From assembly GCA_029067805.1 (NCBI GenBank), contig JAIEDW010000321.1, forward strand, positions 1 to 44,173: a stretch of DNA of 44,173 nt, read 5' to 3'. This document shows, piece after piece, positions 10,955 to 20,896 of this stretch. Below the pieces are notes generated by a model. The model was not told where the DNA came from and did no database searches. It saw only the letters and a program-made list of their open reading frames with translations. Source of the stretch: Lachnospiraceae bacterium. Lineage in GTDB: Bacteria > Bacillota > Clostridia > Lachnospirales > Lachnospiraceae. Position 1 is the first letter of the stretch. Each line of letters starts with the position of its first letter. A program made the position numbers and the translations under genes.

Positions 10955-11356
10955 TTATTTCTCATCCATCATGAAATTAGGCGCCGGTGCCGGCGTTTCT
11001 ACCGGTACGGGTGTTTCCGGAGCAGGTACTGCTATTTCCGGTGCAGGTACTGCTGTTTCCGGTGCAGGTACTGCTGTTTCCGCCTGATTTACATTAACTC
11101 CGGGAATAGTAAGTATTTGTCCTGTATAAATAACATAATTGCTCTTTATGACTGCTGAATTTGCATCATAGATGACTTTCCACAAATCCCCATCACCATA
11201 TACTTTTTTGGCAATCTTCCAGAGGCAGTCATTTTTCTCAACCGCATAAGTAGTCTGCGCTTCTTCCGCTTTAACAGACGCCATCGGCATTGATACAATT
11301 GTAACTGCTAATGCAGCCGTTACCAGGAACCCTTTTGCGAAACTTTTCAATTTCAT
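10955..11356 (-). CDS. Secreted LysM-domain protein with proline-rich repeat tail
   Basis: Signal peptide; TYAVEKNDCLWKIAKKVYGDGDLWKVIYDANSAVIKSNYVIYTGQILTIPG (LysM); tail AVPAPETAVPAPEIAVPAPETPVPVETPAPAP. Confidence 0.88.
   Translation of the reverse strand: MKLKSFAKGFLVTAALAVTIVSMPMASVKAEEAQTTYAVEKNDCLWKIAKKVYGDGDLWKVIYDANSAVIKSNYVIYTGQILTIPGVNVNQAETAVPAPETAVPAPEIAVPAPETPVPVETPAPAPNFMMDEK
11019..11081. repeat. Three tandem 21-bp coding repeats (GGTGCAGGTACTGCTGTTTCC)
   Basis: Units at 11019-11039, 11040-11060 and 11061-11081, two identical and one with 2 mismatches. Confidence 0.9.
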
Positions 11357-11431: not shown

Positions 11432-11473
11432 TTGACATGAATCGACCGAAGACTGCACTGAAACGACATTTTT
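11432..11473 (-). promoter_or_regulatory. Candidate LytTR-type operator upstream of the LysM gene (copy A)
   Basis: 34/42 identity to 13488-13529; on the minus strand half-sites TGTCGTTT and GGTCGATT are 21 bp apart. Confidence 0.55.
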
Positions 11474-12256: not shown

Positions 12257-13339
12257 TTACAATAGCCAAATCAAGTAAGAAGCGGCAAACAGCGCAAAAC
12301 CGATCACACCTGTCAGACCAAACAAATGTTTTTTATACGCGGCTTTATCAAGTGGCAGATTTCCCACCATCTTTCCCGTCTGACCGTTCATAGCAAATAG
12401 ATAGTTCTCACCGTTCCATTTTGTATGTAAAAGCCAGACAGGCAACAATGTATATCTTACTTTGCTGTCGCTCAGCTGAATACTGCCCGTTTCCTTTGTA
12501 ACCGTTGCATAGCCTTTTGCAGTTGCGTCAAAAGCAGTCTCCGTACTTTTCCTGATTTGCTCGTTCGCGCATTTCACACTTTGGTCTGTATCTACATCAT
12601 ATTGATCTGCCAGGTAACCGGCAAGATACGCCGTTTGAAAATCCACCGCCTTTGAAAAGTCAAAAGGCTCAATTAATTCCATCAAATGATCCGGAATTTT
12701 CGTTGAGCCGTCAACAGGAACATCCTCAAACCTGATATTTCCGTCTCTGCTTACTAAAAAGTGACTAGTTTCCGTATATTCATATCTGCTGTCGCTCCAT
12801 GTTCGTACTTTGGTTGCCCTATAACGCATATTTGCATTTGCGACGGCGTCAAACACCCAAAAAGGAACATACACGCCTTTTACTTCATTCATGTGATTTT
12901 CATCTTTAAACACCTTGGGAAGCAGACATTTTCCTGCATAGTACTTTTTCAGGGCAGCAACTGCTGCCTTTTTGTCCTTTTGAAATGGAATAATGTAATC
13001 CGGTTTTAATGCACCCGAAAACTGCCTCGTCACGACTACAGCGTTTCCACAGTACGGACAGGATGTAGCCGTGTTTTTGTCACTCACAATCTCACTGCCA
13101 CAGGAATTACAGACATAAACAGATAGTCCGCTCGCTTCGCCACGCTCCCACGCTCCTCCGGCAGCCGTTTCCCATGTCATATCATCTGCCTGTTCATTCT
13201 GCAGTTCACTGTCATAACTTGCCAGTGTTTCCATCTCATATTCTGTGTCGCAGAAAGGACATTTCACTTTTTGTATTGTACTGTCAAAGGCAATGGTGCC
13301 ACCACAGCATGGACATTTATATTCCTGTATTCCCGCCAT
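12257..13339 (-). CDS. TFIIB-type/rubredoxin-like zinc-ribbon membrane protein
   Basis: 360 aa; YKCPCCGGTIAFDSTIQKVKCPFCDTEYEM and VCNSCGSEIVSDKNTATSCPYCG zinc ribbons; C-terminal TM. Confidence 0.85.
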   Translation of the reverse strand: MAGIQEYKCPCCGGTIAFDSTIQKVKCPFCDTEYEMETLASYDSELQNEQADDMTWETAAGGAWERGEASGLSVYVCNSCGSEIVSDKNTATSCPYCGNAVVVTRQFSGALKPDYIIPFQKDKKAAVAALKKYYAGKCLLPKVFKDENHMNEVKGVYVPFWVFDAVANANMRYRATKVRTWSDSRYEYTETSHFLVSRDGNIRFEDVPVDGSTKIPDHLMELIEPFDFSKAVDFQTAYLAGYLADQYDVDTDQSVKCANEQIRKSTETAFDATAKGYATVTKETGSIQLSDSKVRYTLLPVWLLHTKWNGENYLFAMNGQTGKMVGNLPLDKAAYKKHLFGLTGVIGFALFAASYLIWLL

Positions 13340-13487: not shown

Positions 13488-13529
13488 TTGATATGAATCG
13501 ACCAAAAACTGCATTCAAATGACAATTTG
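13488..13529 (-). promoter_or_regulatory. Candidate LytTR-type operator upstream of the zinc-ribbon/TPM operon (copy B)
   Basis: TTGATATGAATCGACCAAAAACTGCATTCAAATGACAATTTG; half-sites TGTCATTT and GGTCGATT 21 bp apart on the minus strand. Confidence 0.55.
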
Positions 13530-14798
13530 TTAAAGAGAAACCCGCAAAATAAACTGACCGTCCTCGACCGAAAAGTCGTACATACCGTCGTAGCGCTCCA
13601 CAATAGCGCAAATACTGCGGATTCCCATCCCGTGCCCCGGATTATTTGTGACAGGAATTCCGTGTACAAACGTAATATCCGTATCACACGAATTGATAAT
13701 CTGCAAAAAGAATTTCCAGTTTTCTTCGTAAGCAGATACTTCAATCGCGGCAGACAATCCCTTTTGTTTGCATTTCTGACAGGCATGCAGCGCGTTTTCT
13801 AACGCATTGGACAGCAACACGCACAGATCACTTTCGGATACCGGAATCACATGTGGAATCACTGCCTTAATTGTCATTGGGATACCTTGATTGTCCGCAC
13901 GTCCGACAAATGCGGAAAAAATCAGATTTGCCGCCTCATTTTCACAAAAAACCGTCACCTTATCTGCCTCAATTTCCGAACAGATTTCTCGAATATAATC
14001 TTGCGCCTGCTGTGTCTTTCCATTTTCAATACAGGAAGAAAGATACTGCATATGATGACGCAGATCGTGACGGTACACTTTGACTTTCTGCTGCGATTCC
14101 CGCAAGGTTTCAATTTCCCGGACCGCCTGGGCAATCTGAATATTTAGGGTATCCTGGGCCTGCTCTAACTGACTTCGCGCCCGCTCCGCCGCCGAAATGC
14201 GAAGCACAAAGACTAAATACGCCACACAGCATACAAATGGCATGAACTCCACAGTAACTAAAGCGCCCTCCACCAGCAGATTGGTATAAACACTTGTCAG
14301 ATAATCAAACCCGTAATATAACACTGGAATCAAACCAAACTGACACTGCACCGATGTTGTATAGTGTGAAACGGAGCGCACAGATGGCGCAACAAAACGT
14401 ACCAAAAGAAATAATAACGGCAGTGTCACAACCAGCTCCGTTATCCGCTGCATTGCCACATCACCGGAAAATACAGCAATCACCAATAAAGCAATCCACC
14501 GTCTGATCTGACAGCAAAGATATGCCGTCAAAACCGAAATAATGGACCAAAAACTCTTTTTACTGAGAATATAAAGCATAATTGCCAAAGGAATATGCGT
14601 CGTAATCGGATAAAGGCATGTTGCTAAGTGCGGACTTGCAAAAAAATAGACCATTCCTTGAAACAGCAAAAGCACAGCCATGCCGCTGATCAGCATTCTG
14701 CGTTTCTGCCGTGTCCAGACAATATCACAGAAGGCGGCAGATAAAATCATGCCAAAAATGCCCACAAACGTATGATTCAGCAGATAAACTGTGTTCAT
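13530..14798 (-). CDS. GHKL-domain sensor histidine kinase (AgrC-like)
   Basis: 422 aa; N-terminal multi-TM, VYRHDLRHHMQYLSSCIENG, LSNALENALHACQ, NNPGHGMGIRSI. Confidence 0.92.
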   Translation of the reverse strand: MNTVYLLNHTFVGIFGMILSAAFCDIVWTRQKRRMLISGMAVLLLFQGMVYFFASPHLATCLYPITTHIPLAIMLYILSKKSFWSIISVLTAYLCCQIRRWIALLVIAVFSGDVAMQRITELVVTLPLLFLLVRFVAPSVRSVSHYTTSVQCQFGLIPVLYYGFDYLTSVYTNLLVEGALVTVEFMPFVCCVAYLVFVLRISAAERARSQLEQAQDTLNIQIAQAVREIETLRESQQKVKVYRHDLRHHMQYLSSCIENGKTQQAQDYIREICSEIEADKVTVFCENEAANLIFSAFVGRADNQGIPMTIKAVIPHVIPVSESDLCVLLSNALENALHACQKCKQKGLSAAIEVSAYEENWKFFLQIINSCDTDITFVHGIPVTNNPGHGMGIRSICAIVERYDGMYDFSVEDGQFILRVSL

Positions 14799-15532
14799 GA
14801 TATAAAAACCTGCTTTCTATGAAATGCGTATTTTAGATATGTATTTTTGATTTCAGAACATTTTCCGTGCGGTATCGGAATTTGCGCAAGATTATCCATT
14901 GTAATTGCTTTGTAGGAAATATTCTGGATATACTCCATATTAATCAAAAACGACCGGTGTGGACGCAAAAAGTTTTCATATTGTGCAAGCTGATCGCACA
15001 GTTCATCTAACTTTCCGGTACTTTCCAGCACCGTTTCGTTATCCATGTGAAACAATAATGTACGGCCAATCACTTCACAATATTCCAGTCTGTCCAGGTC
15101 AATTCGTGTGATCCCGCTTTTGCAGCGCAATACCAGGCTGTACTGCTGCTCCTTTTTACATTCAGAAATAACCGAATCCATCAGCGGGAAAAAACTCTCC
15201 TCGCAAACCGGCTTCATTTGATAAAAATATGCGCCAACCGTATAGGATTGCACCGCATATTCCGAAGACGATGTCAAAAAGATAATCTTTACTGTAGTAT
15301 CATACTGCCGGATTTCTTTTGCGATACTGATCCCGTTTTCCCCCGGCATGATCACATCCAGAAGCAGAATGTCAAAGCATACCCCTTTTTCAATTTCAGT
15401 CAACAATTCCAAGGAACTTTGAAAAGCGACATATGTAATCTCCTGATTGCGCTTTACACGATATTGTTCAAGCAACGCCTTCATTTCAGCTAATACAGAC
15501 AGATCATCATCGCAAAACGCTACTTTTATCAT
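14795..15532 (-). CDS. LytTR-family response regulator (REC-LytTR)
   Basis: 245 aa; MIKVAFCDDDLSVLAEM...DILLLDVIMPGENGISIAKEIR...FLTSS; C-terminal LytTR FLRPHRSFLINMEYIQNI; overlaps kinase start by 4 bp. Confidence 0.94.
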   Translation of the reverse strand: MIKVAFCDDDLSVLAEMKALLEQYRVKRNQEITYVAFQSSLELLTEIEKGVCFDILLLDVIMPGENGISIAKEIRQYDTTVKIIFLTSSSEYAVQSYTVGAYFYQMKPVCEESFFPLMDSVISECKKEQQYSLVLRCKSGITRIDLDRLEYCEVIGRTLLFHMDNETVLESTGKLDELCDQLAQYENFLRPHRSFLINMEYIQNISYKAITMDNLAQIPIPHGKCSEIKNTYLKYAFHRKQVFIS

Positions 15533-15636: not shown

Positions 15637-15666
15637 TTGACATCTCTGCGGATTCCTAGGTAAAAT
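15637..15666 (+). promoter_or_regulatory. Candidate promoter of the surface-protein gene
   Basis: TTGACA (15637-15642), 18-nt spacer, TAAAAT (15661-15666). Confidence 0.5.
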
Positions 15667-15815
15667 AATTAGATAGCGATTATCCGACTTGGATTATATT
15701 TTGATACTTTATCATATCATTAAGTAAGATTCAAAAAACGAAATCGGCGTGAAATGTAGTCGAAACTGCGCGAATTGTTTCTGATTCAATTTCTAAAGAT
15801 GAGGTGTATATACCT

Positions 15816-17819
15816 ATGAAAATACAACAAAAAAAGATTGTTATATTTGCTTCTTTGCTGTTTTTTCTGATATCCGGCTTTTCAGCAATTACCGCAAAAG
15901 CAGACAGTTTGTCCGAAGAAACAGAAGAATTGATGATACAAGAAACGATAACAGAGGAAGAAGCATCCTCACCATCTGATGAAGAGTCTTTAACGGAGAA
16001 CACAACTGTAACTGTGACAGAAGAAGAAGCTTCCACATCGTTTGATGCAGAAGCGCTACAGAAAACAGAAAACATAACAGACGAAGATAGTTCCATACAA
16101 TCCAATGAAACAGCAATTCAAGAAATGGCAGAAGTAACGGAAGAGATAGGTGAACTGGCGTTCAGTGCCAACGTTGAATATTCTTTCGAAGGATATCATG
16201 TACTGGGAACCTTTACAGAATTTCCGACCGACATCATCCATATTCAGCTGTTATACTCACAGGATAATAAAACCTACCATAAATGTAGCATAGAACGCGA
16301 TTTAAAGGATATTATCAGCGAGAGCATTGTGGAAAAAAAACGGCTAATCTGTCTCTATTCCAACATGGAGCCGCTAAAAAGTTATCTGGAAGGCTCTCTG
16401 GACCGTTTTTATTTAAAACTGCGCCTCACCAAAGAAAACGGTGTTATTTGCGAAACACAGACAGCGCTTATCGACCGTGGAGCATTACAGCCACTTCCCG
16501 AGGAACTAACCCTTGGCGCTGCCTTTCCTTCCAACATGCTAGTGCGTGAAATGAATCCACTTCGCTACTATGGAAAATACCAAATCACCGTAAAGGAAAC
16601 GGCTGCATCCCAAGATATATCCGCAGTTTTACCGGATACGCTTCCAATTGAAGTACAGCTTCTGAAAAAAGGAAAACCCTTTGCAGAAGCGATTGTAGAT
16701 TGCCCCGTTACATGGAAATCCCTATCACTCCCTTCACTCACTGCCGGAGAAAGCGTGACAATTGAGGACGCGGCGGAAGAAATCATCATCCCCGGCGGCA
16801 CTTTGCTGCGCACACCAATGGGTGTCTTCCGGATTAACGAACCGTTTGGCATTGCACAAGATGTGCTTACAGATGAAATCCGGTTGATTCTAAATGTTGT
16901 ATCAAAAGACGAAAAACCAACCGGAGTATTGATAGCAAACAACGACGGATTGGAAATGGCATTCTATCAAAAGCCCACTGGTGCCACCTCCATTCTGGCA
17001 TATACCATTTCCGCGAATGAAACAAAATGGACAGAGCTTCCCGAGCTTGCACTGTTAGAAGCAATTAATTCCCAACCCTCCACTGCAAGCAGCGGATATG
17101 CCCTTGTATTGCGCAATGATCAGGAACCATATCGCTCTTATTTGGCGGCGGAAGCTGCAGGAGGCGCCCACACACCATTCTTTGTTGGTCTGAAAATACA
17201 AGGCGGCGTTTACGACGGACAGCAACTGATCCTCGCATGGCCGGACAATTATGAGCTCCCCCCCAGTCTGCCAAAGCTCGATGGAGCAGGCGGAAATGAA
17301 AGTAATGCTGGTGCAGGCAATAAAGGCAACAGTACGACGGAAGGGCAAAGACCAAATCTTCCTCAAAATACGGACACGAAAAAAGAAAAACAGAATCCCA
17401 ATCTGTCCCAAAGCCAAAATACAGAAAACAAAAATACGAAAAACAAAAATACGGAAAGCACGATGGAACTACCGATGGAATCCGATGTAAAAAATCAGCA
17501 GACACAGAAAGACAGACCCTCACTGGGCAGCCTTGGTTCCTCTGCTTTCACGCAGCCTTCCGCTAAAGCACAGACCGCACTTTTTGTCAATGCAGAAGAA
17601 AATATTTCAGAAACAGTTATTGCAACAGATGTACAGACCGACACTCAAACAGAGAAGGTGATCCCGAAAACACCCGCTACTGAAAACAAACTGTCTGCTG
17701 CTTTGGTTCCCGCCAATCACAACAAAAAAAACGATTACCAACTATTTCTTTGGCTCATGGCAGCAGCAATCGCTGGAATCGGGATTACCTTATATATCCG
17801 CAAGACGGCACATACATAA
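15816..17819 (+). CDS. Uncharacterised secreted, C-terminally membrane-anchored surface protein
   Basis: Signal peptide MKIQQKKIVIFASLLFFLISGFSAITAKAD; acidic E/T/S-rich N-terminal segment; Lys/Asn/Gln-rich low-complexity linker; C-terminal TM LFLWLMAAAIAGIGITLYIRK; GAGGTG RBS 9 nt before ATG 15816 (track start 15804 is a GTG inside the RBS). Confidence 0.85.
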   Translation: MKIQQKKIVIFASLLFFLISGFSAITAKADSLSEETEELMIQETITEEEASSPSDEESLTENTTVTVTEEEASTSFDAEALQKTENITDEDSSIQSNETAIQEMAEVTEEIGELAFSANVEYSFEGYHVLGTFTEFPTDIIHIQLLYSQDNKTYHKCSIERDLKDIISESIVEKKRLICLYSNMEPLKSYLEGSLDRFYLKLRLTKENGVICETQTALIDRGALQPLPEELTLGAAFPSNMLVREMNPLRYYGKYQITVKETAASQDISAVLPDTLPIEVQLLKKGKPFAEAIVDCPVTWKSLSLPSLTAGESVTIEDAAEEIIIPGGTLLRTPMGVFRINEPFGIAQDVLTDEIRLILNVVSKDEKPTGVLIANNDGLEMAFYQKPTGATSILAYTISANETKWTELPELALLEAINSQPSTASSGYALVLRNDQEPYRSYLAAEAAGGAHTPFFVGLKIQGGVYDGQQLILAWPDNYELPPSLPKLDGAGGNESNAGAGNKGNSTTEGQRPNLPQNTDTKKEKQNPNLSQSQNTENKNTKNKNTESTMELPMESDVKNQQTQKDRPSLGSLGSSAFTQPSAKAQTALFVNAEENISETVIATDVQTDTQTEKVIPKTPATENKLSAALVPANHNKKNDYQLFLWLMAAAIAGIGITLYIRKTAHT

Positions 17820-19710
17820 TAAATTTCGTTCCTTTCCCTACGGTCGAAGAAACGTCAATCGTGCCGCCCAGCTCGGTCACAATACCATGTACGATATACA
17901 AACCTAACCCTGTTCCGTTTTCTTTATTATTTGCACCTACATAAAACCGTTTAAAAACAAGTGACAGTTCCTCTTCGGGGATACCGCATCCAGTATCCTC
18001 AACAATCATACAGATTTTATCGCCCTCCATCCGGGCAGATATTGTAATATGTCCGTCACGGGGCGTTGCTCTGAGCGCATTATAAATCAGGTTTTCAAAC
18101 AGGATATCCAGCTTCTGAGGCTGCGCCATCAAAAACACATCCTGCCCGGGTGGTTCTACAATCAGATGCACAGACTGCACCTCTGCCTCTCCATGATATG
18201 TGGAATAAATTTCTGAAAGTATTTCTTTGACAGATATCCGAACCCGTTCCCCTTCAATTCGATCCAATGTGTTAATCGCAGAAAGCCCTTGGAGGCGTCT
18301 TGCCATTTCCCACTGCTTCGCTTGTGCCTGATCAAGATATCCTTGTAATTCCGTATCTACTCCTACTCCGCTCTTGCGAATCGCCTCAATAAACGACTGT
18401 GTGGCAAATACCGGTGCCTTTAAATCGTGCGCCATATCAGAGAAAAATGCTTTGCGCTCATTTAAAAGCTGCGTCACTTCTTCTGTGCGCTTTTTCACCT
18501 GTTCTTCCAAATGATTGGTAAGCATATCGTTTTCCCGCAAAATACGGCGGCTGCGTGATACCATCATGGCGCCAAATAATATTACCAGCAAAAGTCCGCA
18601 CCACTCAAACTGCCAGAAAAAGCGAATCGGCTCAAAACGATTGGAGAAAAAAAGATTGACAAATAATCCGCTTCCAAACACCAAACATCCAGTCAGTGTA
18701 TAACGGCTCTCCCAGCTTTCCTTCTTTATCCCCCGTACTGTGAAAAAAGCGGTTGTGAAAAAAGTAACAATATAATAAAAATCCATCAGTCTGCCATGTA
18801 CGAAGACAGCCCATGGCAGTACCGGAATAAGAAGACACAACAAAAACAGAAGCGCCGACAATAATAATAAAGCCGCCCTCAACCATCTCCAGACTTTACT
18901 GCTGTCTGCGCCGCACGCTAATATCGTAAGCTGCACAACACTAAAACACAAGCAATACAGCGACAGGCTTTGTGCCAAAAACCAATATTTTGTGACAGGC
19001 ATATCAAAAGCAAATACAAAATATCGAAACATATAGATCGTATAACAGCAGCACAACAATGCAAACCAACGACTAAGTTTTCCTCCTGACTGCCACAAAA
19101 AAAGCGTAAACACAGAAAGCGCGAGCGGAAGCATAAAGGCCAAAGCATAGGCAAAGCCTTGAACATGGCTCACCCGCAAGAGCGTTTCTTCCGTACTTAT
19201 GGCAGGCGGAAAATACATTCCACTGTAATACCCCGCTTTTGAGGAAGTTTCCACCATTAAAGTATGATCCCCCTCTGTAAGCAGAAAAGTGATTCGTCCG
19301 CTGCCGATCCCCTCTGTAAGCTGTGTCCCGTTCAAAGAAAGAACATATGCGGAAGAAAGTTCCGGAAAATCAACGGATACAATCTGAGGCGTGCCCTCAT
19401 AGCGTAATGTCATCCGATAACATGCCTTCCCATGCGGCGAAACGGACAAATCTCCCCGCTGCAGATTGGAGAATTCACCAATATAGGTTGGCTGGTCCGT
19501 TACGCGATCATCCGAAAGCAGCCAGCCATCAATTAAAAAGACAGGGGGATTTCGCTTTAAATCCTGTTCGTTCAAAGTAATGATACCGGATTTTCCATAA
19601 GGAGGCGACGTTTGATATTTATTGTCTACATAAAAAAGCAACACAAAAAAGACCGCCAACAGAATCATTACAATCAGCGGCTGCCACCATACGACCTTTT
19701 GCTGTTTCAT
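17785..19710 (-). CDS. Sensor histidine kinase with extracellular domain and 7TMR-DISM-like transmembrane region
   Basis: 641 aa; N-terminal TM + extracellular domain + about 7 TM; HisKA FFSDMAHDLKAPVFATQSFIEAI; HATPase LIYNALRATP, DTGCGIPEEEL, NGTGLGLYIV. Confidence 0.9.
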   Translation of the reverse strand: MKQQKVVWWQPLIVMILLAVFFVLLFYVDNKYQTSPPYGKSGIITLNEQDLKRNPPVFLIDGWLLSDDRVTDQPTYIGEFSNLQRGDLSVSPHGKACYRMTLRYEGTPQIVSVDFPELSSAYVLSLNGTQLTEGIGSGRITFLLTEGDHTLMVETSSKAGYYSGMYFPPAISTEETLLRVSHVQGFAYALAFMLPLALSVFTLFLWQSGGKLSRWFALLCCCYTIYMFRYFVFAFDMPVTKYWFLAQSLSLYCLCFSVVQLTILACGADSSKVWRWLRAALLLLSALLFLLCLLIPVLPWAVFVHGRLMDFYYIVTFFTTAFFTVRGIKKESWESRYTLTGCLVFGSGLFVNLFFSNRFEPIRFFWQFEWCGLLLVILFGAMMVSRSRRILRENDMLTNHLEEQVKKRTEEVTQLLNERKAFFSDMAHDLKAPVFATQSFIEAIRKSGVGVDTELQGYLDQAQAKQWEMARRLQGLSAINTLDRIEGERVRISVKEILSEIYSTYHGEAEVQSVHLIVEPPGQDVFLMAQPQKLDILFENLIYNALRATPRDGHITISARMEGDKICMIVEDTGCGIPEEELSLVFKRFYVGANNKENGTGLGLYIVHGIVTELGGTIDVSSTVGKGTKFIMYVPSCGYIR

Positions 19711-19747: not shown

Positions 19748-20848
19748 TCAATCATTTACTGGCACAAAGCGATATCCCTGTCCCCAAACCGTTTCAATAA
19801 AACGATGCTCCTCCCACGCTTTCTCCAGTTTCCGCCGCAGTCGGGACATGTGCATCTGTACCATCTGACCACCATCCCAAGGCTGGCCGCTCCAAATGAT
19901 ATGAAAGATCTCCTCCAGTGTAAAAATATGCTCCGGATGCTCCGAAAGACGCCATAAAATGTCAAATTCGACAGGCGTAAGAAGCAGTTCCTTTCCGTCA
20001 ATCGACACCCTGCGCTGTGCCAAATCCAGACAAAGCGGACCATAAGAAAATGCCGTGCGCTCGGACATTGCCAGTCTAATACGGGTTTCCACTTTTGTCC
20101 AAAACAGATCAGCAGAAGTATCCTTCGTAATATAATCTATACCACCTGCCGCAAATCCTTCCACCTGCTTGTCCGCTTCGGTAACGCAGCTCAAAAAGAT
20201 AATCGGCGCGGACGTTATCTTGTGAAGTTTTTCACAAACTAAGAACCCCTCCTCATCGGGAAGCATCACGTCCAGCAGAATACAGTCGCACGACTCATCC
20301 GCCGCCAGTTTCAGTGCGTCCTCACCGTTCCCTGCAAGCCGCACAATACAGCCATGCGCCCGTAAAACATCCGCCCAAAAAGTACGCTGGGCCGGTTCAT
20401 CATCCACCAGCAGGATCCGCCACAATCCATCGAAACGTTTCAGCTTTTCAACAGCTGCTGTCATTTGTGTATCAGACGCAGAAGCATCTGTTCTTGTCTG
20501 ATGCAGAAAGCGCATATAAGCATCCTGAAGCTGGCTGCGGCGCAGTCTTGATACCGGAATATTATGTTTGTTTTTCGTCACGATACAGTTCGTATCAATC
20601 GCCTCGACATAGTTTAAATTAACAAGATAAGAGCGATGTATTTTAAAAAACTCCGGTCTTTCCAACAGTTTCTCCTCAAAATCCGTCAAGGCTGCCGTCA
20701 CCTCGCGAATCACACCATCTGCCAAATGAAAGGACACTGTCTTATTGATAACCTCCACATATTCAAGCATTGCAAAAGATACCCTAACGACACCCTCCCT
20801 GTTCTTTAACACAAATCCCTGATCCGCATCACATATTTCGATCTGCAT
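19748..20848 (-). CDS. Response regulator with apparent LytTR-REC-winged-helix (OmpR type) architecture
   Basis: N-terminal LytTR (LEYVEVINKTVSFHL...EFFKIHRSYLVNLNYVEAI...IPVSRLRRSQLQDAYMRFL), REC (RILLVDDEPAQRTFWADVLRAHGCIVRLAGNGEDALKL...DCILLDVMLPDEEG), OmpR wHTH (LTPVEFDILWRLSEHPEHIFTLEEIFHIIW...VQMHMSRLRRKLE...IETVWGQGYRFVP). Start set to ATG 20848 with GAGGAGG RBS. Confidence 0.92.
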   Translation of the reverse strand: MQIEICDADQGFVLKNREGVVRVSFAMLEYVEVINKTVSFHLADGVIREVTAALTDFEEKLLERPEFFKIHRSYLVNLNYVEAIDTNCIVTKNKHNIPVSRLRRSQLQDAYMRFLHQTRTDASASDTQMTAAVEKLKRFDGLWRILLVDDEPAQRTFWADVLRAHGCIVRLAGNGEDALKLAADESCDCILLDVMLPDEEGFLVCEKLHKITSAPIIFLSCVTEADKQVEGFAAGGIDYITKDTSADLFWTKVETRIRLAMSERTAFSYGPLCLDLAQRRVSIDGKELLLTPVEFDILWRLSEHPEHIFTLEEIFHIIWSGQPWDGGQMVQMHMSRLRRKLEKAWEEHRFIETVWGQGYRFVPVND

Positions 20849-20879: not shown

Positions 20880-20896
20880 GGGGGCAAGAAGCCCCC
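20880..20896 (-). terminator. Terminator downstream of ugd
   Basis: GGGGGC-TTCTT-GCCCCC followed by GTATTTTTT on the minus strand. Confidence 0.7.

Follow-up and report, generated by a model that had tools for sequence, protein, structure and literature searches.

Insulation from one another is regarded as the norm for two-component systems, and cross-regulation between them usually proceeds through separate proteins. Some regulators carry two receivers, such as PleD (REC-REC-GGDEF), whose receivers share one output. Regulators of the AgrA type carry the receiver N-terminal to a LytTR DNA-binding domain, while OmpR/PhoB-type regulators couple their receiver to a single winged-helix output. 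The LytTR domain is defined by the motif FhRhHRS (PMC4227749), and in the HdrRM and BrsRM systems of Streptococcus mutans the LytTR regulator is accompanied by a membrane inhibitor protein and there is no receiver (PMC6193735).

The locus described here belongs to a Lachnospiraceae bacterium, and the whole stretch of 44,173 nucleotides that was analysed is called the window throughout. The gene under study and its immediate surroundings comprise the following features.

19748..20848, minus strand: fusion response regulator LytTR-REC-wHTH of 366 aa, its N-terminal receiver apparently lost
20519..20791, minus strand: LytTR DNA-binding domain (Pfam), residues 20-110, motifs FFKIHRS and IPVSR
20102..20416, minus strand: receiver REC2 (Pfam), residues 145-249, with D149/D150, phospho-acceptor D193, S220 and K242
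19766..19996, minus strand: OmpR-type winged helix PF00486 (Pfam), residues 285-361
20880..20896, minus strand: hairpin with T-run (terminator-like), between the UDP-sugar dehydrogenase gene (upstream) and the fusion gene

The reading frame has the coordinates given in the earlier note; it lies on the minus strand, from an ATG at 20848 to a stop at 19748-19750, and a GGAGG ribosome-binding site lies 8 nt 5' of its start. That note had read the protein as LytTR-REC-wHTH, an architecture borne out by Pfam, since all three domains scored far over their curated cut-offs (LytTR, E 2e-16 and 60 bits against a cut-off of 22.6; receiver, E 1e-21; winged helix, E 2e-20). A LytTR profile match at about residues 1-115, the check named beforehand, was thus detected at residues 20-110, and a six-frame genome search recovered the domain at the same positions. 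The match is to PF04397, and the FhRhHRS motif appears as FFKIHRS, with K for R at the third motif position. AlphaFold2, a structure prediction having been proposed as well, modelled the three domains as folded and residues 120-137 as a disordered linker, with a mean pLDDT of 80.5; the pTM of 0.52 makes the relative placement of the domains unreliable, and nothing is concluded about their packing. The acidic pocket, phospho-Asp, Ser/Thr and Lys of OmpR/PhoB regulators are present together with the C-terminal PF00486, and the additional LytTR domain at residues 20-110 departs from the single output of that class. The AgrA-type order, with a receiver N-terminal to LytTR, is likewise absent from the window protein and is found in 35 longer homologues. 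The same protein occurs at the same place in an independent genome (G004, 92% identity), and all three Pfam domains were present in 45/45 aligned relatives.

Because the fusion gene sits directly behind the UDP-sugar dehydrogenase gene and a strong terminator-like hairpin, and no promoter match was found upstream of it, expression of the window copy is uncertain and may differ from that of its relatives. The G004 copy shares this arrangement; most relatives have promoter-like sequence at that position. A search for a conserved repeat in front of the fusion gene showed none.

Full-length homologues were found in 7 of 36 genomes of the same genus, and four of these seven proteins are about 110 residues longer, starting with an extra receiver (MRIAVCDDDE...). 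When 85,462 species genomes were scanned, about 50 relatives came up, every one from a Lachnospiraceae-type genome; the 47 relatives, window included, whose alignment covered most of the protein form the family set. REC-LytTR-REC-wHTH is the arrangement in 35 of the 47, the first receiver being absent in the other 12 (the window and 11 more); Pfam scans of sample long members gave two receiver stretches in each, and AlphaFold2 modelled four domains in the long form L039. From these three observations the ancestral protein is reconstructed as two whole response regulators in one chain, and it is well supported by sequence that the long form represents a complete AgrA-type REC-LytTR regulator fused to a complete OmpR-type REC-wHTH regulator. 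The N-terminal position of LytTR, to which the earlier note had drawn attention as unusual, therefore holds for the window protein but not for its ancestry, in which the domain would have stood C-terminal to its own receiver, as usual. In one further homologue (L087:1354-2046), REC-LytTR is all that is left, and unrelated sequence stands where the fusion's second half would follow.

Downstream of the fusion gene lie two histidine kinases, a second regulator and several repeats.

17785..19710, minus strand: likely cognate histidine kinase with 7TM sensor, HisKA and HATPase_c
15804..17819, plus strand: predicted surface protein with signal peptide and C-terminal TM, conserved between the two systems
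15749..15778, minus strand: operator A, ACAATTCGC-N12-ACATTTCAC, a LytTR-type 9-12-9 direct repeat upstream of the RR1-GHKL operon
14795..15532, minus strand: RR1, a stand-alone REC-LytTR regulator homologous to the N-terminal half of the long fusion
13530..14798, minus strand: GHKL histidine kinase, partner of RR1
13495..13524, minus strand: operator B, TGTCATTTG-N12-GGTCGATTC, upstream of the gene at 12257-13339
11439..11468, minus strand: operator B, TGTCGTTTC-N12-GGTCGATTC, upstream of a LysM-domain gene (10955-11356)

The order fusion regulator, 7TM kinase, surface protein (on the opposite strand), RR1 and GHKL kinase is kept across the family in dozens of species, some loci being without certain members, and where a relative's sequence reaches far enough, the 7TM kinase gene almost always lies directly 3' of the regulator. 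No Pfam family matched the surface protein over its cut-off. RR1 forms its own clade, close to yet separate from the fused N-terminal halves.

Across loci, operator A has the consensus ACCGTTCGC-N12-ACATTTCGC, and a -10-like element oriented towards RR1, in many cases TGTTATATT, comes after it at a spacing that hardly varies; proven LytTR operators have this same repeat length and spacing just upstream of a promoter (PMC6193735). The window holds a single copy of the exact pattern, shuffled versions of the window hold none, and the draft genome holds two. Among 32 loci with both the fusion and RR1, 30 have operator A within 450 bp; of the remaining two, one carries it further upstream (L051) and the other is cut by the contig start (L171), and every evaluable locus with both systems has it. 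None of six genomes with RR1-GHKL and no fusion (0/6), including one with an unfused OmpR regulator (G398), showed operator A; in these six, the only RR1-only genomes available, the RR1 proteins are 50-74% identical, and the operator may have diverged there instead of being absent. Two loci (L079 and L082) keep the fusion and operator A, with no RR1 found in the stretch available. Since operator A tracks the fusion and is missing without it, the fused LytTR domain probably controls the neighbouring RR1-GHKL system through this candidate operator. The integration with the neighbouring LytTR system that had been suggested at the outset is accordingly favoured by the synteny over dozens of species and by the distribution of operator A, with binding itself a prediction. 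The conserved middle of the operator (GCAGTTTC) could be a contact of the winged helix.

A near-consensus promoter (TTGACA-18-TAAAAT) for the surface-protein gene lies at 15637-15666 of the window on the plus strand and is conserved in relatives; operator A is downstream of it, so that a bound regulator might block the surface-protein transcript. Four loci (L061, L075, L076 and L077) have another, distantly related LytTR regulator as the neighbour, oriented the other way round, and operator A was not found in the three of them with sequence upstream of the surface-protein gene (L061, L076 and L077).

A second LytTR-type direct repeat, operator B, with the consensus GGTCGATTC-N12-GGTCGATTC, stands upstream of other genes of the cluster. 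The site at 13495-13524 precedes a gene for a zinc-ribbon-like protein and then a TPM-domain gene, and in relatives operator B precedes small lipoprotein genes. All eight genus genomes with RR1 have it, including two without the fusion (G014 and G024), and it was not found in G004, which has the fusion without RR1. These same genomes led us to reject the fused LytTR domain as the protein acting at operator B, as G014 and G024 combine RR1 with the operator in the absence of the fusion and G004 is the converse. Matches also occurred in a few genomes without a detected RR1; B-like repeats were seen in G012 (L168 and L169) and G018 (L170), where no RR1 was detected at E 1e-50, and the G012 sites border contig ends, so that the assembly may lack the regulator. 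Operator B therefore fits RR1 best, and operator A the fused LytTR domain; this assignment is a correlation over few genomes, which are linked by shared ancestry. The recognition loops agree with it, as the fusion keeps the usual SR and RR1 has PH. The genes behind operator B are probably the regulon of RR1.

The most serious alternative is that operator A serves the autoregulation of RR1, with the fused LytTR domain binding elsewhere or merely assisting, so that the two systems adjoin without direct regulation. Operator A was indeed first given to RR1, as it is often missing where RR1 is missing, and this was overturned by the six RR1-only genomes and by L079 and L082. The promoter region of RR1 contains the repeat, autoregulation is typical of LytTR regulators (PMC6193735), and six fusion loci without RR1, other than L079 and L082, have no operator A, from which RR1, or both proteins together, could be the binder. 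Against this, RR1-only genomes with RR1 50-74% identical are devoid of operator A, L079 and L082 keep it with no RR1 found, and RR1 already tracks operator B in 8/8 genus genomes with RR1, two of them without the fusion. A B-like repeat also stands in front of RR1 in one genome (G081), and the PH loop of RR1 differs from the usual SR of the fusion. Autoregulation by RR1 is thus a possible explanation, but we consider it unlikely.

The five active-site positions of REC2 and the four LytTR motif positions (H/R/N/R) are invariant in 47/47 family members, all 12 short forms included. Between the window protein and L082, its closest relative, dN/dS was 0.05 for LytTR, 0.13 for REC2 and 0.31 for the winged helix, making LytTR the most constrained of the three domains. 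The low ratio and the invariant motif indicate that LytTR of the truncated protein is not decaying, and selection on it in the window lineage is well supported by these comparisons. The claim of two DNA-binding domains stands to the extent that both look functional. It could be argued that LytTR in short forms is a vestige on its way to being lost and that the protein acts as an ordinary OmpR-type regulator, given that the first receiver appears to have been lost at least twice, that REC1 active-site residues are altered in 6/35 long forms (in three of them the phospho-Asp itself) and that one short homologue (L080) has a frameshift and a stop in LytTR. We find this improbable, as the invariant motif in 12/12 short forms, the lowest dN/dS among the domains and the retention of operator A in short-form loci all speak for a working domain.

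The start of the window protein preserves what appears to be the trace of the missing receiver.

20822..20848, minus strand: scar of the deletion, MQIEICDAD at residues 1-9, the counterpart of MRIAxCDDD with which the first receiver of long homologues starts

In MQIEICDA/DQGFVLKNREG (the slash marks the junction), the first strand of the lost receiver (MRIAVCDDD) is joined to the start of LytTR (AEQGFVLKSRDG), and the same junction is found in L011/L071, which begin MRIVTCDA/EQGLVFRNREG; against the reference MRIAVCDDDE...AEQG, both MRIVTCDA/EQG and MQIEICDA/DQG align to both ends. Removal of the first receiver from the window lineage by an in-frame deletion is well supported by this alignment. 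The nearest relatives of the fused N-terminal half are complete REC-LytTR regulators (G266, G732, G1127 and L090), and an unfused REC-wHTH regulator of 229 residues occurs in G398 beside a 51% identical kinase; together they set the direction as fusion followed by loss. G398 also has a related surface protein and an RR1-GHKL pair. With G398 as the root, a tree built from regulator and kinase together places the clade of the window, L082 and L071 within a starred clade of 18 rows, 15 of them long forms, and its starred branches require at least two losses of the first receiver. The regulator-only tree did not reject a single origin for all the short forms (AU p 0.18). Judged by eye, loss of the first receiver showed no clear association with loss of the GHKL kinase. 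In the opposite history, an OmpR regulator would have gained LytTR directly, and the long forms would have acquired their first receiver afterwards. This reading draws on the fact that trees alone leave the direction unfixed, the single origin with AU p 0.18 included; it appears very improbable, because the fused half has complete REC-LytTR regulators as its closest LytTR relatives, the short forms begin with the truncated start of a receiver, and the window clade sits in the midst of long forms in the larger tree. An assembly or annotation artefact joining two genes can practically be dismissed, for although the source genomes are metagenome-assembled or draft, dozens of independent assemblies carry one continuous frame, including the 92% identical copy in G004, and dN/dS is low in every domain.

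Taken together, the account that we favour, and hold to be reasonably probable, is that a REC-LytTR and a REC-wHTH regulator were fused, that the first receiver was then deleted, and that a signal from the 7TM kinase, through Asp193, would reach both the targets of the winged helix and the RR1-GHKL system. Of this account, the sequences support well how the fusion arose and that the deletion took place, that LytTR is under selection, that the cluster is conserved and that operator A co-occurs with the fusion. The 7TM kinase encoded downstream most likely phosphorylates the remaining receiver at Asp193, upon which the protein would dimerise through REC2 and the winged helix would become active on its targets. 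The tethered LytTR pair would provide a second DNA-binding part, most likely at operator A, and one kinase signal could thereby act on the winged-helix targets and on the neighbouring two-component system, which in turn would drive its own operator-B genes; here we infer the kinase pairing, the DNA binding and the direction of regulation. Phosphorylation may also switch between, or bridge, two operator classes, as the earlier note suggested. In long forms, the first receiver would be a second input, perhaps fed by the GHKL kinase or another. The broader view, in which we place about as much belief as doubt, is that the double response regulator joins the two two-component systems of one locus in a single circuit and that repeated loss of REC1 would turn a two-input gate into a one-input regulator of two operator classes. 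It seems that evolution connected two systems through the fusion of two whole regulators, after which one input was deleted repeatedly and both outputs were kept. The dozens of long, pseudo-receiver-like and short homologues, along with their unfused relatives, make signal integration testable step by step.

The architecture is rare, being detected in 4/397 sampled genomes of the same family, and in the class and phylum samples the only full match was in the window's own genome. Literature searches in openly licensed papers found no published description of LytTR-REC-wHTH or REC-LytTR-REC-wHTH, and the possibility raised earlier that the arrangement is common and characterised did not materialise: the component parts are known and the combination, as far as searched, is not described.

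Compared with AgrA/LytR-type regulators (REC-LytTR), the window protein shares the FhRhHRS LytTR domain and has a candidate 9-12-9 direct-repeat operator, and the lost receiver plus LytTR would make up a complete regulator of this type; it differs in that LytTR is N-terminal, has no receiver of its own and is followed by a second regulator. Its C-terminal 220 residues are a standard OmpR/PhoB-type REC-wHTH regulator with an intact phosphorylation site and an adjoining HisKA kinase gene, whereas the extra N-terminal LytTR DNA-binding domain is foreign to that class. The locus resembles the LytTR Regulatory Systems HdrRM/BrsRM of S. mutans (PMC6193735) in that candidate direct-repeat operators, with 12 bp between the repeats, precede the operon promoter closely, and differs from them in having receivers and two histidine kinases. 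Finally, like PleD, the ancestral long form would have two receivers per chain, but unlike in PleD each receiver has its own DNA-binding output.
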